The notes beneath the pieces were generated by a model that saw only the letters and a list, made by a program, of their open reading frames with translations, ran no database searches and was not told the origin of the DNA. Shown piece by piece: positions 2,777 through 18,814 of a stretch of DNA of 22,926 nucleotides. Position 1 is the first letter of the stretch. Each line of letters starts with the position of its first letter. The position numbers were made by a program, and so were the translations under genes. The stretch spans positions 1 to 22,926 of the IMG/VR virus record IMGVR_UViG_3300009152_000224, one strand, 5' to 3'. The DNA comes from a virus.

Positions 2777-2802
2777 AAAAAGGAAGCTTATGCTTCCTTT
2801 TT
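2777..2802. terminator. Bidirectional hairpin terminator between gp55 and the homing endonuclease
   Basis: AAAAAGGAAGC, loop TTAT, GCTTCCTTTTT forms an 11-bp stem with A- and T-tracts in both directions. It lies 31 bases after the gp55 stop on the plus strand. On the minus strand it overlaps the last codons and the stop (2788-2790) of the endonuclease gene. It should stop both convergent transcripts. Confidence 0.8.
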
Positions 2803-4521
2803 CCATATCCACACTGCATTGCCGCAGTCCCAGAATCTGTTCCATCCTTGACTTTTCATAATGTCCCATTCACTACCTAAATGATGCAAATCAGCGGGTA
2901 ATTTATGTTTTTGAAATTTAGTTCTATGATGTATTTCGTGTATATTTTTAAAATACCAGTAATTTGGCTGACTATTGTGAGACCAGCTAAAACCCATATT
3001 TTCATACACTTGTCCCTGTCCCCACTTGAGATCAGCATAGGACACTACGCTTAGTGGTGAGTTTTCTTTGACAAAATGATTGAACAGCTTACTTGCTGCA
3101 CCTGCGATAGAGTGATGTTGTCGCGTGGCAAAACGCAATAATTCCCACTCGGCTACATTTTTACTAAATCTGGATTTACCGAAAGTCATTACACTATATA
3201 TTTCATCATTTTGAACTAGAGCATAGTTGTATTTTGAAGCAACGCTGCCTTGAATGTGATTAGCAGCAAGAAATTCTTTAGCCTGAGAAAATGTTATAGA
3301 AGCAACTTTAAACTTTCTAGCATGCATTTTGATTGACAATTTTCCCAGTGCATTCATTAGTCTATTTTTAATTATTTGCTCATTGGCCAACAATTCGTGT
3401 TCAAAAATTTGTATTAGTTTTACTCCTGCTTCTAGGCATTTTTTATGCTTGCTAATATGATATTGCTTATCTCTGCCGGCCAGTTCACTGTGCCAGTAGG
3501 TACCGTTGAACTCTATGGCCAAATTATGTGATGGTATATAGAAATCAAGTTGCAGTGGTCGTATCACACTATTACAATGAGTTTCAAAAGAAACACCAGA
3601 CTGAGTTAGCCAATCACTTATTACTACTTCACCCCAAGTTAGATGTTTGGGATCACAGTGTGGGCATTTTTCGTGCCATGTATTTTTCACTGTGTCATAA
3701 AATTGTGTTTCACATGTAGTACAGCGCCACAGTAACAAATCTTCTGGATTGCTACTAACATACTCAGACACACTGAACACTGGCAGTATTTTTCCACGAT
3801 AACTTGCTAGTTGATCAAAATGAGAATGTTTGAAGCGCTCAGTGTGCATCTGAGTGTATTCTGGCAATTTCATTATATTATCTACACCAAATCGCTGCAT
3901 AGTCGTTACATTCATCCGTTCTCTAAACAGCGGATGTTGTGCTGGTCTGTCAATTCCGTATTTTGTGTTGAAAGCTGTTGTTGTTTTTTCTGCTATCTGT
4001 TTGTTTTGCTGAGGCCAGTTTACACCATGATTTTTATGACAGGTCAAAGATGATTTTTTCAGAATATTTTTATTTTGAGTTGGCGATTTTGCTCCATATC
4101 GCTGAAGACATGTTTTTTCTGCCTTGTCCTTTGACTCCTGCAGTTGACTGACCGAATCAACGCCATACTTGGCCAATACAGTGTGCTTTCTAGTGCTGTT
4201 TATGCTATCCTTTTTTTCGCTACTGAGCGTGTTCCAAAAATCATTGATCTGATTTGCATTACACTTGCATACATTTGCATTGCCGCAAAATTGTCTAAAT
4301 CCCAAATTTAGACTCTTAAATGATTTAGCTGACTGTGACAGTGAGCACCAGCCATGATTGATATCCAGATCATGCAAGTACAGATGCATCTTTCCAGCTA
4401 ATGGAATATTCTGTGGATACAACGCAGTTAGTTCACTCTCGTATTTGTCTACTGTTCGCGTGATCTTTGCCGCAGATATCTCACCAGCAAGATATGCAAT
4501 TTTTAGCTCAAGTAAATTCAT
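2788..4521 (-). CDS. Free-standing homing endonuclease, Vsr-like (EDxHD-type) nuclease with modular repeats
   Basis: Encodes 577 residues from ATG 4521, preferred over ATG 4536 because AAAGGG lies six bases upstream of 4521. The N-terminal third contains about five ~30-residue modules of the type (K/R)YGV....Q..E...K...T, which look like DNA-binding repeats of phage homing endonucleases. Next is a zinc-ribbon pair (CTTC ... CPHC). Then comes a nuclease core with LDFYIPSHNLAIEFNGTYWH and GVKLIQIFEHE, the Vsr-like fold known from the I-Bth0305I (EDxHD) group. A C-terminal ~170-residue domain (YADLKWGQGQVYENMGF, NYWYFKN) is typical of large phage endonucleases of this sort. It is inserted against the direction of its neighbours, between gp55 and gp47, with its own promoter and terminator, which fits a mobile intergenic element. 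The class is fairly secure; target and activity are unknown. Confidence 0.8.
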   Translation of the reverse strand: MNLLELKIAYLAGEISAAKITRTVDKYESELTALYPQNIPLAGKMHLYLHDLDINHGWCSLSQSAKSFKSLNLGFRQFCGNANVCKCNANQINDFWNTLSSEKKDSINSTRKHTVLAKYGVDSVSQLQESKDKAEKTCLQRYGAKSPTQNKNILKKSSLTCHKNHGVNWPQQNKQIAEKTTTAFNTKYGIDRPAQHPLFRERMNVTTMQRFGVDNIMKLPEYTQMHTERFKHSHFDQLASYRGKILPVFSVSEYVSSNPEDLLLWRCTTCETQFYDTVKNTWHEKCPHCDPKHLTWGEVVISDWLTQSGVSFETHCNSVIRPLQLDFYIPSHNLAIEFNGTYWHSELAGRDKQYHISKHKKCLEAGVKLIQIFEHELLANEQIIKNRLMNALGKLSIKMHARKFKVASITFSQAKEFLAANHIQGSVASKYNYALVQNDEIYSVMTFGKSRFSKNVAEWELLRFATRQHHSIAGAASKLFNHFVKENSPLSVVSYADLKWGQGQVYENMGFSWSHNSQPNYWYFKNIHEIHHRTKFQKHKLPADLHHLGSEWDIMKSQGWNRFWDCGNAVWIWKKEA

Positions 4522-4542
4522 GCAAAGCCCTTTCATACTAAT

Positions 4543-4631: not shown

Positions 4632-5645
4632 ATGAGCAAATTATTTAATAAAGCGGCCGTATGCACGGACATTCACTGGGGCCTCAAGAGCAACAGTGTA
4701 GTACACAATTTGGATTGTACCAATTATATTAATTGGTTTATAGATACGGCCAAAAAACACGACTGTGATGTTTGTTTCTTTTTGGGAGATTGGAATCATC
4801 ATCGTGCCAGCATTAATATACAAACTCTACAGTTTGGATTAAGAGCATTGGAACGATTGAACGAGTCATTCTCTCAGGTATACTTTATACCAGGAAACCA
4901 CGATCTCTACTATCGTGATCGCAGAGATGTTCATAGTGTAGAATGGGCAAAACACCTGTCTAGAGTTAAAATCATTAATGATTTTGCACACTATGATGAT
5001 GTAGTAATTGCTCCGTGGTTAGTACAAGATGATTGGAAACAGATCAGCAAATATGAAGGCAAGTATCTTTTCGGTCATTTTGAACTTCCACATTTTTACA
5101 TGAACGCACAGGTTGAAATGCCAGATCACGGTGAACTACAATCGGAACATCTTTCCGGCTTTGAGAAAGTTTTTAGTGGGCATTTTCACAAGCGACAGTT
5201 TCGGAAAAATATAACTTATATTGGAAACACATTTCCACATAACTACAGCGATGTAAATGACGATGATCGCGGTATGATGATATTAAAGTGGGGGTCTGAA
5301 CCCGTATTTCTAAGTTGGCCCGATCAACCAAGATTTCGCATCTACAAGCTAAGTGAAATTCTTACTGATGAAACTCTACTACAAAAAGACATGCATGTGC
5401 GAATTAATTTAGATGTTGATATTACCTATGAGGAAAGTAATTTCATTCGCGAACAATTACTTCCAAAATATCAACTACGAGAAATGTCACTAATTCCGTC
5501 TAAAGTGGATCTTGAGCAAGATGATACGGACTACTCAAACATGAAGTTTGAGTCCGTAGATAGTATAATTCAAGAGCAAATACAACAATTATCTGAAGGT
5601 GCATTTGACAAACGACTTCTCCTAGAAATCTATAAAAATTTATGA
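4632..5645 (+). CDS. 47: Recombination endonuclease subunit gp47 (Mre11-like)
   Basis: Encodes the nuclease subunit of the gp46/gp47 complex, the phage Mre11-Rad50 counterpart that resects DNA ends for recombination-dependent replication and host DNA degradation. Metallophosphoesterase motifs occur in order: CTDIHWG (D13, H15 from the chosen start), FLGDWNHHR, IPGNHDLY, LFGHFE and SGHFHKRQ. These supply the metal ligands of the family. The frame is open from ATG 4605, but MSKLFNKAAVCTDIHWG at 4632 is chosen because the first motif normally starts close to the N-terminus and the preceding nine residues look unrelated. No clear ribosome site separates the two starts. The length of 337 aa is close to T4 gp47 (339 aa). 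The stop overlaps the gp46 start by four bases (ATGA), implying translational coupling. Confidence 0.92.
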   Translation: MSKLFNKAAVCTDIHWGLKSNSVVHNLDCTNYINWFIDTAKKHDCDVCFFLGDWNHHRASINIQTLQFGLRALERLNESFSQVYFIPGNHDLYYRDRRDVHSVEWAKHLSRVKIINDFAHYDDVVIAPWLVQDDWKQISKYEGKYLFGHFELPHFYMNAQVEMPDHGELQSEHLSGFEKVFSGHFHKRQFRKNITYIGNTFPHNYSDVNDDDRGMMILKWGSEPVFLSWPDQPRFRIYKLSEILTDETLLQKDMHVRINLDVDITYEESNFIREQLLPKYQLREMSLIPSKVDLEQDDTDYSNMKFESVDSIIQEQIQQLSEGAFDKRLLLEIYKNL

Positions 5646-8600
5646 GTATAAAACTAAAAACACTGCGACTTAAAAATTTTCTAAGCATTGGAAATGTAGA
5701 ACAGGAAATAAATTTTGATCGCAAGGATCTTACACTGATTCTAGGCGAAAACTTAGATTTGGGCGGTGATGGCTCAAGGAATGGTACTGGCAAAGCACAA
5801 CCACTAACTAGTAATATATTAACTCCTCACGGATGGACTCTTATGCGAGATATCAGTGTTGGAGATAGCGTTATTGCTCATGATGGCTCATTAGCCAAAG
5901 TGATTGGAGTATATCCACAAGGAATTAAATCCGTTTACAAATTTACATTCAGAGACGGTCGTACATGTGAGGCAAGCGAAGATCATTTATGGAATGTATA
6001 CAGTCATCTGTTTCGCAATAAAACAGATATCAATCATACAAGAATTCTGACAACACTTGAACTGATTGAACTACTAAATGTAAATTCTCAAAAGAAAAAG
6101 GCGTTTAACTTTTTGTATGTCCCTCTGTATACTCCTAGAGATACAGAGAATGTATCTGTTCCTATTTCTTGTTATACTTTGGGAGCGTTACTCGGAGACG
6201 GACATTTAAAATCATCTGTTGGTATAACATCTGTGGATCAAGAAATACTCACACGAGTAAACGATGAACTACAATTAATTGATTGCTCATTGAGACAATC
6301 ACAGTCAACAACTCGTCCTAAAATTTCATATAGAGTTGTGATGAATCACAGAAAAAATAATCCCAAAAAAATTACTCACCCATTAAGGTCGCGTCTTATT
6401 GATTTAAAATTAAATGTAAACAGCGAAGAAAAATTTATACCAGAAATTTACAAAAATATTAGCGTTTCTCAAAAATTAGAATTGCTTCGTGGATTATTAG
6501 ATACAGACGGCACCGTTGACAGAACCGGATCTATATCTTTTTCTTCTAGTAGCAAGCAACTTGCCATGGATGTAACCGACTTAATTCGTAGTATCGGTGG
6601 AATTGCCAGAATAAGAGAAAAAATACCACGCTTTACTTATTTGAATGAGAAAAAAGAAGGTAAAAAAGCATATATAGTTTTAATTCGCTATCATAATCCA
6701 AAAAAATTATTTTCGTTGTCAAGAAAACTTGACAGGATAAGCGCAGATTATCAATATGCTGATCAACTTCGTCTACAAATATCTGATATTCAAAAAATTG
6801 ACAACTCCGAATGTCAATGTATTGCTATAGATCACAAAGATCATTTATATGTCACTGATAATTATGTAGTAACTCACAATACCACTATATTGCAGGGTCT
6901 AAGCTATGCACTATTCGGTAGCCCTATTAATCAAATTAAGAAAGACAATTTGATTAATAGAACAAATGGCAAACAAATGCATGCCGTTGTTGAATTCACT
7001 GTTAATGATAATGATTATCAGATTGTTCGTGGTCGTAAACCAAATGTGCTAAAGTTCTATGTCAATAACAAACAACAATCAAGTGATGACAATGACGCAC
7101 AGGGTGAAAACAAAGAAACTCAACAAGCAATTGAGCGTATTCTGGGTATGTCCAGTGATATGTTTCAACATATTGTTGGTCTCAATAGCTACACTACACC
7201 GTTTCTAAGTATGCGTGTCAGTGATCAACGCACGATCATTGAACAACTACTTGGAATCACTCTGCTAAGCGAAAAAGCAGATGCTATCAAAGAACTAAAC
7301 AAGACTACAAAAGAAGACATTCAGCGAGAAGAGTTTCGTGTAAATGGAGTTGAGGCGGCAAACAAGCGTATTACTGAACAGATTGACAGTCTAAAGAAGC
7401 GTCAGCGTCTATGGATTGCCAAGCGAGACGAAGACTTGCTTAAGTTAGTAACAGAATACGACCAATTGCAACTTGTGGATATTGGCGCCGAATTAGCGGC
7501 ACACAAAGATTTGGCCGTATGGAACTCTAACAAAGAAAAGCTTGATCGCTATGATGCCGTTTTGGCTAGACAGACTGCATGGAGACAAAAGCTAGACAAA
7601 GAAGTGGCCGCTCTACAGAGTAGCTTGACTAAGCTTACCAAAATTGATATTGCTGCCGAATTATCAGCACACTCTGAACTAGCAATTCACAATACAAAAG
7701 TATCTGAGCGTGAAATCTGGGCTAAAGAATTACAACGAGCAAAGAGCGACGGCGAAAAGCTAGCTAAGTCAGCACAAAAGCTACAAGAAGAAGTACATGA
7801 GCTAGAACAGCATCGTTGCTATGCGTGTGGACAAGAGTTTCACGATAGTAAGCACACCGAGGTATTAGAGAAGAAACGAAAACTTCTAGTAGAGACAAAT
7901 GAAGGCTATGCCGCAGCACATGAATTATGGAACAAGCTAGTAAATAGCGAAGTGATTGTTGGCAATAAGCCCACTACACACTACAACACACACGCTGAAG
8001 CTATTAAGCACAGTAGTGAAGTAGATCGTATCAGCAAGCAAATAGAAGACAAGCTAAGCGAAACTGACCCATATGCTGAGCAACTGTTAGAGAACAGCAC
8101 TCTAGTATTGGGTCCGCAGCCAAAAACACACTATGACACTGAAGAGGCGGCATTTAAGCACAGCAGTCGCGTACAAACACTATTGGATCAAATACAAAAG
8201 AAACACAGTGAAGAAGATCCGTATGCTGAACAAATCGCAGAAATGCAAACTAATGCTATACAAACAGTTGACTTTAGTGAGATCAACAGACTGACCCGAT
8301 TACTACAACACCAAGACTATTTGTTGGATCTATTAACTAACAAAAAGTCATTTGTTCGCAAAAAAATCATTGAACAGAATTTGTCATATTTGAATAACAG
8401 ACTGTCGCATTACTTGGATCGCATAGGATTACCACATCGCGTGGTATTTCAAAATGATTTAAGTGTTGAAATTACAGAACTTGGACGAGAGCTAGATTTT
8501 GACTCACTTAGCAGAGGTGAACGCACTAGAGTTATTTTAGGACTGTCATTTGCATTTCGCGATGTGTGGGAAAATCTTTATCAATCAGTTAATGTAATGT

Positions 8601-8800
8601 TTATTGATGAACTAATGGACTCGGGCATGGACACCGTGGGCATTGAGAACGGTCTTGCACTACTGAAAGACTTTAGCAGAAATAGAAACAAATCGGTATG
8701 GCTAGTAAGTCATCGCGATGAGTTGACCAACAGAGTTAATAACACAGTAAAAGTAGTAAAGGAAAATGGGTTTACAAGTTTGAAGGAATTGGAAGAATAG
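5642..8800 (+). CDS. 46: Recombination endonuclease subunit gp46 (Rad50-like) interrupted by an intein
   Basis: The precursor is 1052 residues; removing the 362-residue intein leaves 690 (T4 gp46 is 560). The N-terminus is an SMC/Rad50-type ATPase half: LKNFLSIGN, then a P-loop split as RNGTGK | TTILQGLSYALFG around the intein. FQHIVGLNSYTTPF follows as the Q-loop region. Long coiled coils flank a zinc hook, CYAC at C726/C729. The C-terminal half has signature LSRGER (956-961), Walker B VMFIDE (985-990) and SHRDEL as the H-loop. It pairs with gp47 from the overlapping upstream gene. Because the intein separates GK from T in Walker A, the precursor cannot be a working ATPase until it is spliced (inference from motif position). 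Confidence 0.93.
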   Translation: MSIKLKTLRLKNFLSIGNVEQEINFDRKDLTLILGENLDLGGDGSRNGTGKAQPLTSNILTPHGWTLMRDISVGDSVIAHDGSLAKVIGVYPQGIKSVYKFTFRDGRTCEASEDHLWNVYSHLFRNKTDINHTRILTTLELIELLNVNSQKKKAFNFLYVPLYTPRDTENVSVPISCYTLGALLGDGHLKSSVGITSVDQEILTRVNDELQLIDCSLRQSQSTTRPKISYRVVMNHRKNNPKKITHPLRSRLIDLKLNVNSEEKFIPEIYKNISVSQKLELLRGLLDTDGTVDRTGSISFSSSSKQLAMDVTDLIRSIGGIARIREKIPRFTYLNEKKEGKKAYIVLIRYHNPKKLFSLSRKLDRISADYQYADQLRLQISDIQKIDNSECQCIAIDHKDHLYVTDNYVVTHNTTILQGLSYALFGSPINQIKKDNLINRTNGKQMHAVVEFTVNDNDYQIVRGRKPNVLKFYVNNKQQSSDDNDAQGENKETQQAIERILGMSSDMFQHIVGLNSYTTPFLSMRVSDQRTIIEQLLGITLLSEKADAIKELNKTTKEDIQREEFRVNGVEAANKRITEQIDSLKKRQRLWIAKRDEDLLKLVTEYDQLQLVDIGAELAAHKDLAVWNSNKEKLDRYDAVLARQTAWRQKLDKEVAALQSSLTKLTKIDIAAELSAHSELAIHNTKVSEREIWAKELQRAKSDGEKLAKSAQKLQEEVHELEQHRCYACGQEFHDSKHTEVLEKKRKLLVETNEGYAAAHELWNKLVNSEVIVGNKPTTHYNTHAEAIKHSSEVDRISKQIEDKLSETDPYAEQLLENSTLVLGPQPKTHYDTEEAAFKHSSRVQTLLDQIQKKHSEEDPYAEQIAEMQTNAIQTVDFSEINRLTRLLQHQDYLLDLLTNKKSFVRKKIIEQNLSYLNNRLSHYLDRIGLPHRVVFQNDLSVEITELGRELDFDSLSRGERTRVILGLSFAFRDVWENLYQSVNVMFIDELMDSGMDTVGIENGLALLKDFSRNRNKSVWLVSHRDELTNRVNNTVKVVKENGFTSLKELEE
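5795..6880 (+). mobile_element. Class 3-type intein with LAGLIDADG endonuclease, in the Walker A loop of gp46
   Basis: Precursor residues 52-413 (362 aa). Boundaries are set by restoring the P-loop: ...NGTGK | A52QPLTS ... VVTHN413 | TTILQ. Residue 1 is Ala, not Cys or Ser. The block B region reads EDHLW (H115, W117), block F reads CIAIDHKDHLYVT (C393), and block G ends T411-H-N. This W-C-T trio with a non-nucleophilic first residue and +1 Thr is the signature of class 3 inteins, where the block F Cys starts splicing. A LAGLIDADG (DOD) endonuclease sits inside: LGALLGDGHL (D186) and LRGLLDTDGTV (D289) are the two catalytic blocks, both intact. The element therefore looks able to splice and to home. 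Confidence 0.88.
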
Positions 8801-8839: not shown

Positions 8840-9355
8840 ATGAGCAAGCAAAAAACAAAAGGGTCAAGTTGGGAAAGAGAAGTAGCAAAGTATCTTTCCA
8901 ATACATACAATGAATCATTTATAAGAAATTTAAGTGGTAGTGGCTCTTATGTTGGAGGTAAAAATATTAGTCGCAAATCTTCACTGACAGCGGAACAAAT
9001 TCGTCATACAAGAGGCGACATTATTGTACCAGAAAGCTTCAATCTTCTTAATTGTGAATGCAAGTCTTATTCCAAGTTTCCTTTTAATTTACTTTTAAGT
9101 AATGAGTGCAAACAACTTGAGATCTGGCTAAATCAACTAGTAACTAGTGGTGATGATAACAGTGTCAATTGTTTGTTTATGAAAATAACTCGTGTTGGAA
9201 AATTCATTGCAGTAGAAAAAAAATACGATTGGGATCTAAAAAATCATACTGTTTATACTAGCCCAAACTACAACGCATGGATAATAAGCGACATGGATAT
9301 TTTTTTTGCCAGCAATAAAAACAGACTTAAATACATTTCAGAAAAGAAAGAATGA
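8840..9355 (+). CDS. PD-(D/E)XK nuclease, Holliday-junction-resolvase/RecB-like fold
   Basis: Encodes 171 residues. Catalytic-type residues are arranged as in small PD-(D/E)XK nucleases: an early helix WEREVAKYL (E12, E14), then GDIIVP (D60), then CECKSY (E73-x-K75). An SGSGSYVGG loop lies before the core, as in resolvase-like members. The gene begins 40 bases after gp46 in the same direction, so it probably belongs to the recombination operon and may act on branched or broken DNA; substrate is not decidable from sequence. It is not an obvious T4 endonuclease VII (gp49), which has a different fold. Confidence 0.7.
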   Translation: MSKQKTKGSSWEREVAKYLSNTYNESFIRNLSGSGSYVGGKNISRKSSLTAEQIRHTRGDIIVPESFNLLNCECKSYSKFPFNLLLSNECKQLEIWLNQLVTSGDDNSVNCLFMKITRVGKFIAVEKKYDWDLKNHTVYTSPNYNAWIISDMDIFFASNKNRLKYISEKKE

Positions 9356-9356
9356 T

Positions 9357-9551
9357 ATGCACTGTGATAGAAGAGATATTCTGCGTTGGAGACGAGCAAA
9401 AAAACTAAAAAAGCAATCAGAAAATGCCTACTCTGGAAAACCAAAGAGTAAGATTAAAGCTAAAAAAATTAGCCCACAAGACAAATCATTTATCAGAGTT
9501 ATAAAAAAGGACGGAACAGTAATAATAATAGAAAAAAAACTTTCACTGTAA
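9357..9551 (+). CDS. Small basic hypothetical protein
   Basis: Encodes 64 residues from ATG 9357, two bases after the stop of the nuclease gene and preceded by an AAAGAAAG purine run. The frame is also open from 9306, but that would overlap the nuclease by 50 bases. The protein is very Lys/Arg-rich (DILRWRRAKKLKKQ, KSKIKAKK) and ends FIRVIKKDGTVIIIEKKLSL. No family is recognised. The charge suggests nucleic-acid binding, but that is only inference. The stop codon lies inside the first hairpin of the downstream structured region. Confidence 0.5.
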   Translation: MHCDRRDILRWRRAKKLKKQSENAYSGKPKSKIKAKKISPQDKSFIRVIKKDGTVIIIEKKLSL

Positions 9552-10010
9552 GATTGTTACTGTGAAATAATGGGTCTATGAAAAAGATAGACTAACACAG
9601 GTCAAACAACAGACCTGTCTAAAATAACTAGTAACATTGTGAGTACAGCCTTTACTGCTCACGGCGAAGCACTGTTGAAGATCGGACAATACTAAGATCA
9701 CAGTGGGTAAACTAGTGGGGAGTGCCGAATAGAGTATGGATGTACTCAATAGATTCGGAACCGATGCTCCCGCCCTTAGGCAAGGCTCTACTGCGCCTGA
9801 CAGATCAACGGGCAAAAAATTAAAGGGTTTTGGTGGTTCAACGAACGTTCTTCCCACAGCGAAAAATAGCTGTCTTCAAAGAACAAGGGGGAGGACCCTG
9901 ATATTTTATCAAATAATTACAGTCAGTTGGCTGTCTCGCTTTGCTCAACAGCCATGTTTGTGTCAGTTCTTCTCGCTGCGCTCTCCGACTGACACAAACA
10001 GACTTCTTTT
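9541..10010 (+). ncRNA. Candidate large structured non-coding RNA (unassigned family)
   Basis: About 470 bases form a string of well-paired hairpins. Paired segments are: TTTCAC-T-GTAA/TTAC-T-GTGAAA (9541-9567); GTCTAT/ATAGAC (9574-9592); ACAGGTC/GACCTGT (9597-9618); GTGAG..CAG/CTG-CTCAC (9639-9662); nested CCGAAT/ATTCGG around GAGTA/TACTC (9725-9758); GCCCTTAGGC/GCCTGA..GGGC (9772-9813); nested GTTCTT/AAGAAC around ACAGC/GCTGT (9847-9884); TGGCTGT/ACAGCCA (9928-9954); and a 13-bp TGTTTGTGTCAGT/ACTGACACAAACA (9955-10000). Composition changes to more GC than the flanks. The two overlapping open frames here have no protein-like character. I cannot match it to tRNA, tmRNA, RNase P or a group I/II intron core. 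Phage-borne giant RNAs such as GOLLD or ROOL are possible relatives, untested. The strand is assumed from the upstream operon; hairpins alone do not fix it. Confidence 0.55.
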
Positions 10011-10028
10011 CAACTAATTTAGTTTTTA

Positions 10029-10216
10029 CTGATATCACTGAAATACATCTGTACAGATATCAGACTACTAATTCATATGAATCACTAAGACATAACTGAA
10101 ATACATCACACACGCATTATTGAGAGATATAACTAAGACATCACTAATATGTCACTAAGATATCTCACTGAAATACGCATCACATATATGGCTGTCATAA
10201 ATCACGGAAATACATC
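10029..10216. repeat. Array of short degenerate direct repeats (iteron-like)
   Basis: Two interleaved motifs recur in an AT-rich, gene-free stretch. Motif A, (C/A)ACTGAAATAC(GC)ATC, lies at about 10036, 10094, 10166 and, as CACGGAAATACATC, 10203. Motif B, (C/A)ACTAAGA(C/T)AT, lies at about 10083, 10131 and 10153, with a weaker copy at 10143. An inverted pair CTGATATC/GATATCAG brackets the first A copy (10029-10063). No open frame crosses it convincingly. Such arrays can be protein-binding sites, part of an origin, or decayed duplications. Confidence 0.55.
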
Positions 10217-10242
10217 TAATTAATATATAACAGAGAGAGATT

Positions 10243-10281
10243 ACAAAAAGAAAAAAGCCAGCACGCCGATAGGCTGCTGGC
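10243..10281 (-). terminator. Intrinsic terminator of the gp26 transcript
   Basis: Read on the minus strand, the stem GCCAGCAGCC/GG-C-TGCTGGC with a TATC loop is followed by TTTTTTCTTTTT. It lies 25 bases after the stop of the -1 frame ORF (10306) and ends the leftward tail transcript before it enters the repeat and RNA region. Confidence 0.85.
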
Positions 10282-10282
10282 G

Positions 10283-10300
10283 AATGGGCTGCAGCCCATT
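10283..10300. repeat. 18-bp perfect palindrome
   Basis: AATGGGCTGCAGCCCATT is a perfect 9+9 palindrome directly upstream (in the minus direction) of the terminator hairpin. In RNA it would form a second, nearly loop-less hairpin; in DNA it could bind a dimeric protein. Its role is unknown. Confidence 0.7.
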
Positions 10301-10305
10301 CTAAA

Positions 10306-10518
10306 TTAGAAGAATGGTAATTTGGTCTTCTTAGTAGTTTCCATATTGGAATCAACTAATTTACTTAGCTGATCCAATTCGTCTTTGCTCAAATTAAGTA
10401 CATCTACATATTGCATGCTACCTCGGGTATACCAAGCCATTTTAATTGCTTGAGCCTTGATGCCAAGTGCTTCATGCCACATGACTTCGCCCAGCTTCTT
10501 CATTTCGGCATGATCCAA
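10306..10518 (-). CDS. Small ORF downstream of gp26, probable -1 frameshift extension (tail chaperone T-like)
   Basis: Encodes 70 residues if started at TTG 10518; the next ATG is codon 6. No good ribosome site precedes it, but the frame is open back to 10542, where it meets the TTTTTTC slippery site at the end of gp26. A -1 shift there joins ...NITDFF to RLKLLSLDHAEMKKLGEVMW, a smooth helical sequence, and gives a predicted 349-residue fusion. The ORF is helical and charged, ending TTKKTKLPFF. Position next to the tape measure gene and the G/GT-type arrangement suggest the extension of a tail assembly chaperone. An independent small protein is the alternative. Confidence 0.6.
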   Translation of the reverse strand: MDHAEMKKLGEVMWHEALGIKAQAIKMAWYTRGSMQYVDVLNLSKDELDQLSKLVDSNMETTKKTKLPFF

Positions 10519-10529
10519 TGATAGAAGCT

Positions 10530-11354
10530 TTAAGCGAAAAAATCAGTGATATTCAATATTAATTGCTGTGTGTACTCATGTGAGCAATGCATGCATTTTA
10601 TATTCAGTGGTTTCAATTGATTTTCGTTTCGCAATTGAACACTGAATTCGCGAATCGCTAAGTTGGTATTTCTATCACAGTTATTCATAAACTCATTAAT
10701 AAATTCTCTCTCGTGTACAGTAGATTCTGGAGTTTTAATGTACTCTACAGTTCCACTAATAATCTCTGAAAAAAGAGAATTCAACTTGGTGATAGTATCG
10801 CGTATTGTTTGTTCCTTTTCAGGACTATCTTCATAAGATTGACTGTCTCGTAGGAATTTTTGTAATTCAAACTGTGCCAGATTGTTTTTGTTTGCTTCTG
10901 CAAATGAAAGTGGTTTGAACTTAATTTCCAATTCTCTGATTTTTAATGTTTTTTCATAGTCAACATTCTGCTGTTGACTTAACACTTGAATTAGACTGAT
11001 ATCGTATGTTGCATCAGTGCTGCAATTTGGACAGACCGTTCCAATCTCCATTTTTTCACCAGTGCTGGCTACTTTGATTGCAATAAGAATAGCGTCCAGA
11101 TCAACACTGTTGATCTCCCATGCGTTTTTAATATTTGGCATGCAGCTATGAATAATATCTACTACTGCGTGTCCGTTAAACACTGCGTCTGGAGTCTTAC
11201 TGGTTATTTCATCCAGTGCAGTCATTGGATAGACTGGTAATTCTCCTGTTTGAGTTGGTTCAATGACGCTTTGATCATAATATTTGTTTTGACTCGGAAG
11301 CTTAATATAAATTGCTGGTCTGCGAAAATATTGCTGTAGTGGATTGTTGGTCAT
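10530..11354 (-). CDS. 26: Baseplate hub / tail assembly protein, T4 gp26-like
   Basis: Encodes 274 residues, beginning MTNNPLQQYFRRPAIYIKLP, the opening typical of the T4 gp26/gp51-type baseplate protein family in T4-like phages. Two Cys pairs, CPNC (C108, C111) and CMHC (C254, C257), could bind zinc. A middle helical part contains KPLSFAEANKNNLAQFELQK. The ATG is preceded by AACAGGACACAAC, a modest ribosome site. It is divergent from the tape-measure-like gene, with a 61-base shared promoter region containing TATTTATT and TATAAGTA sequences that could serve late transcription leftward. The C-terminal codons contain a slippery heptamer. Length is somewhat above the ~210-250 aa usual for the family. 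Confidence 0.8.
   Translation of the reverse strand: MTNNPLQQYFRRPAIYIKLPSQNKYYDQSVIEPTQTGELPVYPMTALDEITSKTPDAVFNGHAVVDIIHSCMPNIKNAWEINSVDLDAILIAIKVASTGEKMEIGTVCPNCSTDATYDISLIQVLSQQQNVDYEKTLKIRELEIKFKPLSFAEANKNNLAQFELQKFLRDSQSYEDSPEKEQTIRDTITKLNSLFSEIISGTVEYIKTPESTVHEREFINEFMNNCDRNTNLAIREFSVQLRNENQLKPLNIKCMHCSHEYTQQLILNITDFFA
10536..10542 (-). promoter_or_regulatory. Putative -1 ribosomal frameshift slippery heptamer
   Basis: The minus strand reads GAT TTT TTC GCT TAA in the gp26 frame, giving the canonical X-XXY-YYZ heptamer T-TTT-TTC two codons before the stop. The -1 frame has a TGA immediately upstream of the heptamer and is then open for 78 codons. The only window where ribosomes could change frame (10530-10542) is thus filled by the slippery site. 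Confidence 0.6.
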
Positions 11355-14359: not shown

Positions 14360-17300
14360 ATGTCATATAAACGAAAATTCACAAATCAACACGGTTCACT
14401 AAGTCCAATAAGCGGTATGAACAGTAATACCGGCTCATGGAACGCTGGTATGAATAAAGAACCAACTGGCGGCTGGAACAATGATTTTGCTTTTAGAAAC
14501 TATCAAAGCAGACTGCCAGAAGTCTATACAGGACATCCAAATCGCATAGAGCGATACAATCAGTATGAAATGATGGATGTGGATCCTGAAATAAACGCAT
14601 GTTTGGACATTCTTTCTGAATTTAGTACACAGATGAATGAACACAACAATACGCCGTTTGAGATACAGTTTAATGATGATCCCACTACTACTGAAGTTGA
14701 ACTAGTAGTAAAGCAATTACAGCAGTGGTGTAAATTGAATGAGTTGGACACCAGAATATTTAAGATATTTCGCAACACAGTAAAGTACGGTGATCAGGTT
14801 TTTGTTCGTGACCCAGAAAATTTCAAACTGTATTGGACTGACATGACAAAGGTCGTCAAAGTTATTGTCAACGAGAGTGAGGGCAAGAAGCCTGAGCAGT
14901 ATGTAATCAAAGATATTAATCCAAATTTACAAAATTTAAGTATTGCTGAAAAGACTACTACTGACTTTCAAGCACAGCCACCTACCGCTGGGTACAGTGC
15001 TCCATACAGCTATACTGTTCCAAACGAACCTTATGGAACCACGGGCAGTAGATTTAGCTTGGGTATTAACGAAGCTGCTATAGATGCTAAGCATGTAGTG
15101 CATCTTAGCTTGACTGAAGGACTTGACCGTTATTGGCCATTTGGACAAAGTATACTTGAAAATATATTCAAAGTTTATAAGCAGAAAGAATTATTAGAAG
15201 ACGCTATTCTAATATATCGTGTTCAACGGGCACCAGAGCGCAGAATATTCAAAATAGATGTTGGAAATATGCCAAGTCACTTGGCTATGGCATTCGTTAA
15301 TAGAATTAAAGACGAAATTCATCAGCGAAGAATACCAAGTGTTCATGGCGGACAGAGTGTAATGGATGCTACATATAATCCACTTTGCTTGGATTTAAGT
15401 ACACGAATTCCACTATTGGATGGACGAACTCTGGAATTACAGGAGTTAATTCGTGAGTTTGAATCTGGTAAAGAAAACTGGACCTATAGTTGTGATCCAG
15501 TCACTGGTAAAGTAGTACCAGGTGTAATTAACTGGGCAGGTATTACACGCAAGAACACCGAAGTTATCAAAGTAACACTAGATAATGGAAAAACTTTAAC
15601 ATGCACACCTGATCACAAAATTCCAGTATTCGGCAAAGGATTTGTTGAAGCACAAAATTTGACAGCAGAAGATAGTCTGATAGCGTTCAATGTGAGAAAC
15701 GAAAAAATCAGTGGTGAAAAATCAAGCGAATATCAACAAGTATGGGATCATGAAACTCGCGAGTGGGTGTGGACTCATCGCATGGTAGGCGAGTTTTTTA
15801 GAAAGATTGAAAAACATCAAGAGTATACATATCTTTCAGAAAATATTGGCGCAGAAAAAACAGTAATACATCACCGTGATTATAACAGATTCAATAATGA
15901 TCCGCGCAATCTAACATACATGAACAAGAAGGATCATATACTGTATCACGCTGCACAGGAATCTGATTTTTGGAAAACCATGACAGAAGAATATCGTGCT
16001 GAGCTTACTGGTAAAATTTCAGAAACTGTAAAACAGAACTGGAATATAATGACCGAGCATGAGCGTCATATTGCTCTGTACCGCATTCGTGCAGCGCAGA
16101 CTAAAGCAGTGTGGCTTCGCAATAATGACTCAGAACATGCAGCAAAATATTCAATAAATGCAAGTAAGTCCAGAAAAGAATATATTAAAAATAATCCAGC
16201 TTTTGCCGAGCAACTTAGTAAAAATTTAGAAAACAGAGTAAAGTTTAATAACCAAAAGCTCACGATGACATTTGACATGCTTCAGTTAGTAGTAGAAAAA
16301 GTCAAAGCTCACGGTAAAAACAAAAAGAAAATTATTGATTTGTGTTCAAGCGATGAAAAGCTACTTGAACTTGTAAGACAGCACAACTCTGAGATGAGTG
16401 ATAGTGCTACGCAAAATAAAATTAATTTGAATCAATTTGGCGAAAAGAAAATTAATCGTCTAATTACACAATTCGGATATAAAAATTGGAAACATTTCGT
16501 TAGCTCAATTGAACAGTTTAACCATCGCGTAGTAAGTATTGAGCGAGTTAGCAATCGTGATACCGGCACTATAACTATTGATGGAACCGAAAGATGGCAC
16601 AACTATCATACTTTTGCGATTGATTCTGGAATCTTCATTAAAAACTCAATCAATGAGGACTACTTCTTTCCAGTAACAGCAGACGGTCGTGGTAGTGATG
16701 TTACTACACTGCCGGGCGGATGTTTTAGCATGGATACTAGAGTTTCGTTATTGGATGGCAGAGAACTATCTATTGCTGAAATTGAAAGTGAAATGAAAAC
16801 TGGCAAACAGCTATGGACATACAGTTGTGAGCCACTTACTGGAAAAGTAGTCCCTGGACTAATTACATGGGCCGGCGTAACTAAGCCTCGTGCGAAAGTG
16901 CTAAAGATTACTCTTGATAACGGTGAGCATATTATCTGTACACCGGAACATAAATTTCCAGTATATGAACAAGAATTCAAGCGCGCCGACGAATTTGTTG
17001 TGGGCGACAGTATGATTCCTCTATATAGAAAGAAAGAATATCTTGGAAAAAGCAAAAATGAATATGAACAGTATTACGACAATGAGGCAAAAGAGTGGAA
17101 GTTTACTCACCGAACAGTCGCTGACTATCTAAAAGATACCCTCGTGTGTTATCATGTTCATGATTCGTCCACCAGTAATGGATTGTATGAAGTCAGACAT
17201 CATAAAGACTTCAATAGATTCAACAATGATCCGCAAAATCTATGCTGGATGTCATTCAGTGACCATATCAAGTATCACGCTGACCACAACACACAGCGAA

Positions 17301-18814
17301 TTCAAATTATCAAAGAAAATAATATAAATGAATATAGGAAAATTTGCAAGAATAATTCAATAGCGCAAAAAAAACGATGGGAAAACACAACACCTGAACA
17401 AAAAGAAAACTTTGTCGATGGTCTTAGACAGTTCTGGAGCAATCTTACTGATGAAGAACGCCAGCTCATAACGGACAAGATGAGCGCCTCGATAAAAAAA
17501 TATATTGAATCTCTATCTGAAGATGATCGTGAATCTAGAGCACAAAATTCGCGTGATGCATTCAAAATTGCCTCATCACGAAAACTAGAAAAAATGCGCA
17601 CTGATGAAGAATACCATGCATGGGTTTGTCAGCAGCAGAGTGCAGGGTGGACCGAGAAACTTCGTGAACAACGTGCATATCAAACCAGAGAATGGAACTA
17701 CATCAATTGGAGCGACGAGCGCGGCAAAGAGCGCAAGAAGAAGCACAGTGATAGACAGCGAGTTGAGTATACACATGACATGCTGAAGTTTGTTATTGAT
17801 ATGGTCAAGGGAAAAACTACGCATGAAGTAACTGCTGACAATATCGCTGCTGAATTGAACAAGTCATCTCTACGAGATAAGTTAGTTGAACTGAACAAAG
17901 ATAAACAAGTTCGTAACTGGAAGGTTGAAGAAGGGTTCACTCCAGGAAACATCAGACGTTCACTAGTGCAACAAATTGGATATAAGTCATGGAAAGACTT
18001 TCGTGTGAAAGAAAGCGTGCACAATCACCGAGTAGCTGCCCTTGAGTGGTTAGAAGAAGAGATCTCAGTTGGCACGTTGACAATTGACGGCGATGAAATA
18101 TATCATGATTATCATACTTTTGCCCTGAGCGTTGGCGTATTTACGAAAAATAGCAATCTAGGGGAAATAGATGATCTTAGATACTTCAACAACAGACTTG
18201 CACGAGGATTGCGTGTACCAAGTAGTTATCTACCAACTGGTCCAGAAGATAGTGAGCGACCATTAGTAGACGGAAAAGTAGGAACTGCACTAATACAAGA
18301 GTATCGTTTCAATCAATATTGTGAGCGTTTGCAGGGTTACATTGCTCGCAAATTGAATGAAGAGTTCAAGTTATTCTTACGCTGGCGTGGATTCAATATA
18401 GACGCTGGTTTATTTGATTTAAAATTTAACCCCCCTCAAAATTTCGCAGCGTATCGTCAAAGTGAAATTGATCAAGTCAGAGTAAATGTGTTTAATTCAG
18501 TGGCACAGCTACCATACATATCTACTAGATTTGCAATGGAAAGATTTTTGGGCCTAAGTCAAGAAGAAATAAAGAAGAACGAGAAGTTATGGCATGAAGA
18601 GCGTAGTAAACCAGAAGACGAAGAAAAAACAGCAAAGGGCACAGATTTGCGTAGTATTGGACTAAGCACTAGTGACATTGAAAGTGACACCGAAACGGCA
18701 GAAAATATTCCTCCAGAGGGTCAAGAGCAGATGCCAGGTATCTCTCCAGAAGTTACTGCTCCAGTGGGTGCACCGCCAGCAGTTGGCCCAGAGACTGCTC
18801 CTCCCGCAATATAA
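14360..18814 (+). CDS. 20: Portal vertex protein gp20 carrying two inteins
   Basis: The precursor is 1484 residues. Removing residues 343-762 and 788-1264 leaves a 587-residue portal, in the usual range (T4 gp20 is 524). Extein landmarks match gp20: IERYNQYEMMDVDPEINACL near the N-terminus, NTVKYGDQVF, a block ending RRIPSVHGGQSVMDATYNPL, then SINEDYFFPVTADGRGS, TTLPGG and SNLGEIDDLRYFNNRLARGL, corresponding to T4 SMSEDFFF...DGRGS...LPGGQNLGEIEDL. The C-terminus is an acidic, Pro-rich tail. The portal ring occupies one capsid vertex, nucleates prohead assembly and is the DNA gateway. Both inteins interrupt the most conserved part, so head assembly depends on two correct splicing events. Confidence 0.93.
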   Translation: MSYKRKFTNQHGSLSPISGMNSNTGSWNAGMNKEPTGGWNNDFAFRNYQSRLPEVYTGHPNRIERYNQYEMMDVDPEINACLDILSEFSTQMNEHNNTPFEIQFNDDPTTTEVELVVKQLQQWCKLNELDTRIFKIFRNTVKYGDQVFVRDPENFKLYWTDMTKVVKVIVNESEGKKPEQYVIKDINPNLQNLSIAEKTTTDFQAQPPTAGYSAPYSYTVPNEPYGTTGSRFSLGINEAAIDAKHVVHLSLTEGLDRYWPFGQSILENIFKVYKQKELLEDAILIYRVQRAPERRIFKIDVGNMPSHLAMAFVNRIKDEIHQRRIPSVHGGQSVMDATYNPLCLDLSTRIPLLDGRTLELQELIREFESGKENWTYSCDPVTGKVVPGVINWAGITRKNTEVIKVTLDNGKTLTCTPDHKIPVFGKGFVEAQNLTAEDSLIAFNVRNEKISGEKSSEYQQVWDHETREWVWTHRMVGEFFRKIEKHQEYTYLSENIGAEKTVIHHRDYNRFNNDPRNLTYMNKKDHILYHAAQESDFWKTMTEEYRAELTGKISETVKQNWNIMTEHERHIALYRIRAAQTKAVWLRNNDSEHAAKYSINASKSRKEYIKNNPAFAEQLSKNLENRVKFNNQKLTMTFDMLQLVVEKVKAHGKNKKKIIDLCSSDEKLLELVRQHNSEMSDSATQNKINLNQFGEKKINRLITQFGYKNWKHFVSSIEQFNHRVVSIERVSNRDTGTITIDGTERWHNYHTFAIDSGIFIKNSINEDYFFPVTADGRGSDVTTLPGGCFSMDTRVSLLDGRELSIAEIESEMKTGKQLWTYSCEPLTGKVVPGLITWAGVTKPRAKVLKITLDNGEHIICTPEHKFPVYEQEFKRADEFVVGDSMIPLYRKKEYLGKSKNEYEQYYDNEAKEWKFTHRTVADYLKDTLVCYHVHDSSTSNGLYEVRHHKDFNRFNNDPQNLCWMSFSDHIKYHADHNTQRIQIIKENNINEYRKICKNNSIAQKKRWENTTPEQKENFVDGLRQFWSNLTDEERQLITDKMSASIKKYIESLSEDDRESRAQNSRDAFKIASSRKLEKMRTDEEYHAWVCQQQSAGWTEKLREQRAYQTREWNYINWSDERGKERKKKHSDRQRVEYTHDMLKFVIDMVKGKTTHEVTADNIAAELNKSSLRDKLVELNKDKQVRNWKVEEGFTPGNIRRSLVQQIGYKSWKDFRVKESVHNHRVAALEWLEEEISVGTLTIDGDEIYHDYHTFALSVGVFTKNSNLGEIDDLRYFNNRLARGLRVPSSYLPTGPEDSERPLVDGKVGTALIQEYRFNQYCERLQGYIARKLNEEFKLFLRWRGFNIDAGLFDLKFNPPQNFAAYRQSEIDQVRVNVFNSVAQLPYISTRFAMERFLGLSQEEIKKNEKLWHEERSKPEDEEKTAKGTDLRSIGLSTSDIESDTETAENIPPEGQEQMPGISPEVTAPVGAPPAVGPETAPPAI
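15386..16645 (+). mobile_element. Portal intein 1 with HNH endonuclease
   Basis: Precursor residues 343-762 (420 aa), between DATYNPL and SINEDYFF. It starts C343 (CLDLSTRIPLLDG, block A), has block B TCTPDHKIPV with the T..H pair, block F HNYHTFAIDSG, and ends IFIKN followed by Ser +1. The penultimate residue is Lys rather than the usual His. An HNH homing endonuclease lies inside: VIHHRDYNRFNNDPRNLTYM, followed by DHILYHA and Lys/Arg-rich helices likely to bind DNA. It is clearly related to portal intein 2. Confidence 0.92.
16721..18151 (+). mobile_element. Portal intein 2 with HNH endonuclease
   Basis: Precursor residues 788-1264 (477 aa), between TTLPGG and SNLGEIDD. It starts C788 (CFSMDTRVSLLDG), with block B CTPEHKFPVY, block F HDYHTFALSVG and end VFTKN followed by Ser +1, again with Lys instead of penultimate His. 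The HNH core reads VRHHKDFNRFNNDPQNLCWM then DHIKYHA. Shared phrases with intein 1 (LWTYSCEPLTGKVVPG against NWTYSCDPVTGKVVPG; YKSWKDF against YKNWKHF) show common descent. It is longer through extra residues in the helical region after the HNH. Confidence 0.92.

Follow-up and report, generated by a model that had tools for sequence, protein, structure and literature searches.

The stretch from 9544 to 10010 on the plus strand of the window (the 22,926-nucleotide piece of DNA that was analysed) specifies a large structured noncoding RNA. This is shown at the level of RNA conservation, while its transcription is inferred. The RNA lies in a slot between the RusA/endonuclease VII/gp46 side and a gp26-like hub gene, on the strand opposite the hub, and relatives carry at least six sequence classes of RNA in this slot. 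We conclude that the slot RNAs are a new family, indeed a set of classes, among the large phage RNAs of unknown function. The case for an RNA rests on homologues with compensatory changes, the folding energy of the single sequence being only modest evidence.

The window, an IMG/VR fragment of 22.9 kb, is DNA of a T4-like jumbo phage whose nearest named relatives are PA5oct, Phosso, Atu_ph07, RaK2, PBECO4, and Salicola SCTP-2. Its plus-strand genes include gp47 and gp46 (SbcD/SbcC-like), a RusA-like resolvase, and a small ORF at 9306-9551. According to Pfam, an intein that bears a LAGLIDADG domain splits the SbcC-like gp46 gene (5642-8800). The baseplate hub gene, a T4-type portal gene, and a prohead protease gene are on the other strand. 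The portal protein (14360-18814) gave two intein splicing matches, one with an HNH domain. A 582-aa protein (2788-4536, minus strand), encoded between a late sigma-like gene and gp47, matched DUF7487 and, weakly, treble-clef and Mom-like domains; it is possibly a homing endonuclease or a modification enzyme.

Homologues of the window RNA were sought in the RusA-hub gaps of close relatives, which a gp47 search had identified (84, 80, and 73% identity). L226 (the same contig as L310) matched over 476 nt (E 2.5e-98, 327 bits), and L286 and L291 matched at E ~1e-17 and 3e-16, respectively. When the window was compared with L226, eight predicted pairs were found to differ: three by compensatory changes (those of hairpins b and d1 listed in the table, and A-T to G-C in hairpin g), three by one-sided changes (G-C to G-T, G-T to A-T, and C-G to T-G), one by a repair, and one by a break. 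The one-sided changes remain paired only on the plus strand, as G-U or A-U, and become A-C mismatches on the other strand; the plus strand is therefore that of the RNA. A structure of 83 pairs, drawn by hand, was checked against a four-sequence alignment (A4; window, L226, L286, and L291), in which 84.2% of cells fell in standard pairs, compared with 29-50% when the partners were slid by 1-3 columns. Moreover, nine double-change cells were counted versus 4.3 in shuffles (0/500). Run on the same sequences, RNAalifold independently arrived at stem y and hairpins c, z, and g, and seven of its pairs vary at both partner positions. This covariation evidence for the window class is direct, but it comes from three independent lineages only, and the alignment is unreliable in the divergent middle part of L286 and L291. 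Compensatory changes among homologues had been named beforehand as the test of an RNA, and they were found both in the window lineage and in relatives; conservation at the RNA level and the strand are thereby shown.

An RNA on the minus strand was also considered, since the terminal loops match the reversed GAGCG..AGCGA loops of other classes; it was ruled out by the G-U polarity of the one-sided changes together with the co-directional upstream operon. A scan with a 17-mer from the invariant core revealed no additional true member of the window type, the exact matches in L311 and L313 being judged chance from reading their sequence. A 17-mer from hairpin e had no match in IMG/VR, and no DNA similarity to the window RNA was found across 50,697 phage genomes.

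The initial annotation, made from sequence alone, had described at least nine stems of 6-13 bp within about 470 bases, ending in a perfect 13-bp stem. Both statements held: the stems exist, and the 13-bp stem is the second terminal hairpin in the table. The 470-nt stretch folds at a minimum free energy of -140.7 kcal/mol (z = -3.4), and none of 100 dinucleotide shuffles was as low. The minus strand of the stretch is equally stable (z = -3.55), so strand is not given by folding energy alone. The further claim that flanking genes have no such structure failed, in that 240-nt windows within coding regions (for example, 4641-4880) attain z = -3.8/-4.7. Given the equally stable minus strand and the similar scores of some coding stretches, energy is merely suggestive of an RNA. 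It had also been stated that no tRNA, tmRNA, RNase P, or intron core could be recognised, which held (Rfam at gathering score and tRNA/tmRNA searches were empty), and proposed that the stretch is an unassigned large phage RNA, perhaps a new family, which is supported by the compensatory changes in its own lineage and in better-sampled relatives.

Table. Features of the RNA in the window and of the genes that border its slot
Feature	Coordinates	Strand	Remark
RusA-like Holliday junction resolvase	8840..9355	+	phrog_244, E 1e-15; upstream edge of slot
5' hairpin a	9544-9551/9557-9564	+	Kept in L226, with its single T-T mismatch repaired to T-A
Hairpin b, GTCTAT-gaaaaag-ATAGAC	9574..9592	+	L226: T-A to C-G (compensatory), G-C to G-U
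Hairpin c, ACAGGTC/GACCTGT	9597..9618	+	Conserved AAACAA loop; almost invariant in all 4 homologues
Three-way junction, closing ACTAGT/ACTAGT	9627..9716	+	Contains hairpins d1 and d2; one closing pair broken in L226
Hairpin d1	9639-9648/9655-9662	+	G-C to A-T compensatory change
Hairpin d2	9670-9675/9700-9705 and 9680-9683/9696-9699	+	Inside three-way junction
Long hairpin e	9718-9722/9767-9771, 9725-9730/9753-9758, 9732-9736/9743-9747	+	Present in L226; absent or shortened in L286/L291
Core stem y/y'	9785-9789/9825-9829	+	Encloses hairpin z/z'; covariation in stem y
Hairpin z/z'	9795-9798/9810-9813	+	Within core 9785..9829
Pan-class motif ACAGATCAAC	9800-9809	+	In core; common to other classes
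Hairpin g	Outer 9848-9854/9889-9895; inner (ACAGC/GCTGT) 9856-9860/9869-9873	+	3 of 5 inner pairs changed on both sides
Two terminal hairpins	9928-9934/9948-9954 and 9955-9967/9988-10000	+	Followed by T-rich tail to 10010
Baseplate hub gene	10530..11354	-	phrog_150, E 2e-15; convergent; downstream edge of slot

Hairpin a overlaps the small ORF at its final codons. At the site of hairpin b, which resembles the GAAAAAGA hairpin of class 1, L286 and L291 were found by reading to have hairpins of different sequence. Within the three-way junction, the loop GGACAATACTAA is conserved in L286 and L291, and about 25 nt of the core are invariant across all four members. The terminal hairpins and their tail (9928..10010) are likely a tandem terminator and not part of the RNA body; paired hairpins with TCGCT..GCTC-type loops also occur in L226, L286, L291, and L254. 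At the 3' ends of class 1-3 RNAs (for example, L036), RNA-specific hairpins with a GAGCG..AGCGA loop, which amounts to a tandem G-A plus a GNNA-like loop, were observed roughly once at each RNA locus; in the window clade, two tandem hairpins have the inverted loop TCGCT..GCTC.

The slot itself was examined from both sides. Among 80 loci found via gp47, the hub could be located in 67, and in 67/67 of these RusA and the hub converge across 708-1518 bp. Among 80 loci found via the hub protein, a profile grown from the RNAs of L010, L011, and L020 detected a related RNA downstream of the hub, on the opposite strand, in 67; the slot RNA of L046 and L052 was recognised by eye, and the rest were truncated contigs or had no recognised copy (L007, L009, and L033). 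One exact class-1 18-mer matches at least 120 IMG/VR contigs. Large noncoding gaps are found at the slot in the named phages PBECO4 (837 nt), XaC1 (793 nt), PA5oct, and Phosso, and in genome annotations the slot is empty or holds tiny doubtful ORFs (PA5oct, Salmonella 7t3). These counts show the synteny. The slot gap of Phosso (L088, 6975-8000) is about 1 kb of noncoding and visibly hairpin-rich DNA without a recognisable class; it is likely a further class.

The diversity of classes in the slot is likewise shown. Class 1 comprises L010, L018, and others; class 2, L049, L058, and L071; class 3, L015, L057, and L070; class 4, PBECO4, 7t3, and XaC1; and class 5, most of the gp47 relatives. L225, L227, and L254 have a separate type of slot RNA, and the window, L226, L286, and L291 form the window type. 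In the same slot, L254 and the relative closest by gp47, L225, have an RNA different from that of the window. The RNAs of L225 (12700-13450) and L226 (11850-12560), whose gp47 proteins are 84% and 80% identical to that of the window, are entirely different from each other, which indicates that classes can replace one another.

One core is backed by covariation in classes 1 and 5 and was seen by reading in classes 2 and 4. In it, the loop of a hairpin pairs with a downstream segment, and a GTTGN/NCAAC helix and a second helix interlock. In class 1, the best-sampled, the core is 96.8% paired, with 159 double-change cells compared with 34 in shuffles (0/500); two pseudoknots are supported, with both-side changes in 7/8 pairs of the first and 4/5 of the second, and invariant G-U pairs are present. 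In class 5, the same loop pseudoknot (205-210/338-343), GTTGC/GCAAC, and tACCG/CGGTa stand out. Covariance model R2 gave weak matches at the exact slot and on the expected strand in PBECO4 (E 0.11), 7t3 (0.68), PA5oct (2.1), and XaC1 (4.3), none of them significant individually. A ten-base motif, AC[AC]G[AG]NCAAC, occurs in 144/187 class 1-3 RNAs and 46/61 class 5 gaps, as well as in E. coli PBECO4, Salmonella 7t3, Xanthomonas XaC1, and all four window-type RNAs, against a background of 0.02 per kb. Its single occurrence in the window lies inside the block that is invariant in the window type. The sharing of this motif is shown, but the motif was defined only once the classes had been compared, which makes its chance value (~1%) optimistic.

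Whether the window type descends from the same ancestor as the other classes is supported less directly. Pairwise alignment of the window RNA with other classes gave no significant score, the classes being too divergent; a sequence profile of classes 1-3 did not match the window RNA, and covariance models R1 and R2 found nothing in 9541-10010. A proposed GTTGA/TCAAC core helix can be formed in the window and L226, the latter having a mismatch in the K/K' loop pairing, and GTTGA is missing from L286 and L291. A free structural descriptor of the core matched 277/300 shuffles and is hence worthless; a partly post hoc descriptor with GTTGN/NCAAC fixed matched 15/1500 shuffles and 4/182 control stretches, and is weakened by L286/L291 and L226. 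The window type does share with the other classes its position, strand, size, a GAAAAAGA-type hairpin, and the ten-base motif. We consider common descent likely, and count against it the lack of any model match and the absence of the core helix from L286 and L291.

RNAs of classes 1-3 have ACTC[hexamer] on one side of a hairpin and ATCT[hexamer] on the other (seen, for example, in L018, 6275-6717, minus strand). Both copies carry the same hexamer in 172/187 of these RNAs, and across phages the hexamer takes ten forms. This covariation is shown; the twin columns covary as identical, not complementary, letters, which suggests one partner read by both copies. That this partner acts in trans is likewise inferred. 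No cis complement of the twin motifs of classes 1-3 was found nearby, nor any enrichment over other variants. Class 4 was found by reading to have two CGTCAAG copies in the same arrangement. The window contains a TTCAAcGAAC/TTCAAaGAAC pair, but equally good pairs arise in 605/1500 shuffles, and L286 has no such pair.

Comparison with known RNAs did not provide an identity. At gathering score, no Rfam family, GOLLD (RF01998) and ROOL (RF03087) included, was found in the window or its relatives; a permissive Rfam search of 9300-10600 yielded two chance-level matches, both outside 9541-10010, and no GOLLD. ARAGORN and Rfam detected no tRNA or tmRNA in the 22.9-kb window. The RNA is neither GOLLD nor ROOL, nor is it a tmRNA, an RNase P RNA, or an intron of an Rfam family. 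Slot RNAs are not described in Rfam or in the open-access literature searched, subscription papers and preprints being outside its scope. GOLLD, often >800 nt and near tRNA islands (PMC12286853), is similar as a large phage RNA with an elaborate fold and no known function, and also in that parts of it vary strongly in sequence between relatives; the slot RNA differs in being about 350-450 nt, in its fixed RusA/gp46-hub slot without tRNAs, and in lacking a covariance match. ROOL, about 660 nt and also near tRNA islands (PMC12286853), is likewise a large phage RNA with several pseudoknots and without a dedicated protein; the slot RNAs, for their part, show the motif ACAG[AG]NCAAC and twin motifs that co-vary. 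The packaging RNA (pRNA) of phi29-type phages acts by binding a virion or motor partner. Compared with pRNA, the slot RNA is much longer, has another architecture and no Rfam match, and adjoins the hub, not terminase. Noncoding RNAs have also been reported in another jumbo phage, phiKZ (mentioned in review PMC13282480); phiKZ represents a jumbo phage lineage unrelated to the window phage.

The explanation that we favour, with moderate confidence, is a noncoding RNA gene that belongs to the slot-RNA set and whose product is a stable docking RNA acting in trans. In this view, transcription would proceed towards the hub gene, together with the gp47-gp46-RusA operon or immediately after it, and 9544-10010 (+) would yield a structured RNA of about 350 nt (about 9544-9895) with a double terminator behind it. 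The RNA would be one of an undescribed set of large phage RNAs, all encoded at a single fixed slot of T4-like jumbo phage genomes and built around a common pseudoknotted core. It would be released as a stable RNA, its stability being inferred, and is predicted to act in trans by docking a dedicated partner, which may be a phage or host protein or RNA, or the RNA itself as an oligomer. A stable docking RNA is preferred on the grounds that the slot has no accompanying protein gene and that one class can take the place of another; action in trans is inferred solely from the missing cis complement and the lack of a fixed host gene.

The main alternative to a docking RNA is an RNA-only assembly, in which copies of the RNA would build a homo-oligomeric cage or scaffold inside the infected cell; such cages have been demonstrated for GOLLD and ROOL (PMC12286853). 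The RNA is large, ornate, pseudoknotted, and phage-borne, and no protein gene obligately accompanies it. However, there is no sequence or covariance match to GOLLD or ROOL, the slot is outside a tRNA array, the RNA is roughly half their size, and no self-complementary loops were identified; we consider this alternative unlikely. The ordinary alternative is a structured 3' UTR that protects or terminates the gp46-RusA mRNA and stops collision with hub transcripts, without a separate RNA. The convergent genes on both sides, the two terminal hairpins with their T-rich tail, and the overlap of hairpin a with the end of the small ORF favour it. However, a terminator needs no pseudoknots, 25-nt invariant block, or pan-class motif, and in PA5oct, Phosso, XaC1, and others, where the orientation of RusA/endonuclease VII or the upstream gene varies, the large noncoding gap persists; this reading, too, seems improbable. 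A DNA element (a replication origin, or a packaging or recombination site), with the stems as cruciforms or protein sites, would accord with the adjoining recombination genes and the dispersed repeats in the neighbouring 10031-10216. It is very unlikely, in that the one-sided changes fit G-U pairs on one strand only, and the invariant G-U pairs of class 1 would read as A-C mismatches on the opposite strand and would be mismatched in a DNA cruciform. A decayed intron of group I or group II, or another mobile RNA, brought to mind by the several inteins and homing endonucleases of this phage, is all but excluded, there being no Rfam intron match in the window or its relatives, no split gene around it, and a slot position and strand that are constant across very divergent phages.

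For the docking RNA, a bolder reading may be put forward, to which we give as much doubt as credence: that the large pseudoknotted RNAs carried at this one fixed slot by T4-like jumbo phages, cultivated E. coli and Pseudomonas phages included, constitute an undescribed superfamily, whose classes replace one another and in several of whose classes two loops co-evolve as identical copies, both binding the same fast-evolving partner. If this were true, the slot would be central to the infection programme or would serve as an arms-race module. For GOLLD and ROOL, structures are known and function is not, partly for want of tractable hosts. Slot RNAs occur in phages growing on laboratory E. coli and P. 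aeruginosa (PBECO4/121Q type and PA5oct), so deletion, RNA-seq, and pull-down are ordinary experiments. Moreover, the replacement of classes between close relatives and the co-varying identical loops suggest a specific, changing partner, which comparative data could help to identify.

Further elements were observed between the RNA and the hub gene. Dispersed repeats of about 11-19 nt, of cACTGAAATACATC and aTCACTAAGACAT types, occur in 10031-10216, between the terminal hairpins and a minus-strand terminator; they are possibly a protein-binding array or an origin. On the minus strand at 10244-10301, a GC-rich hairpin, GCCAGCAGCC...GTGCTGGC, is followed by a T run and resembles a terminator of the hub operon, and a perfect 20-nt palindrome, GAATGGGCTG/CAGCCCATTC, adjoins this hairpin.
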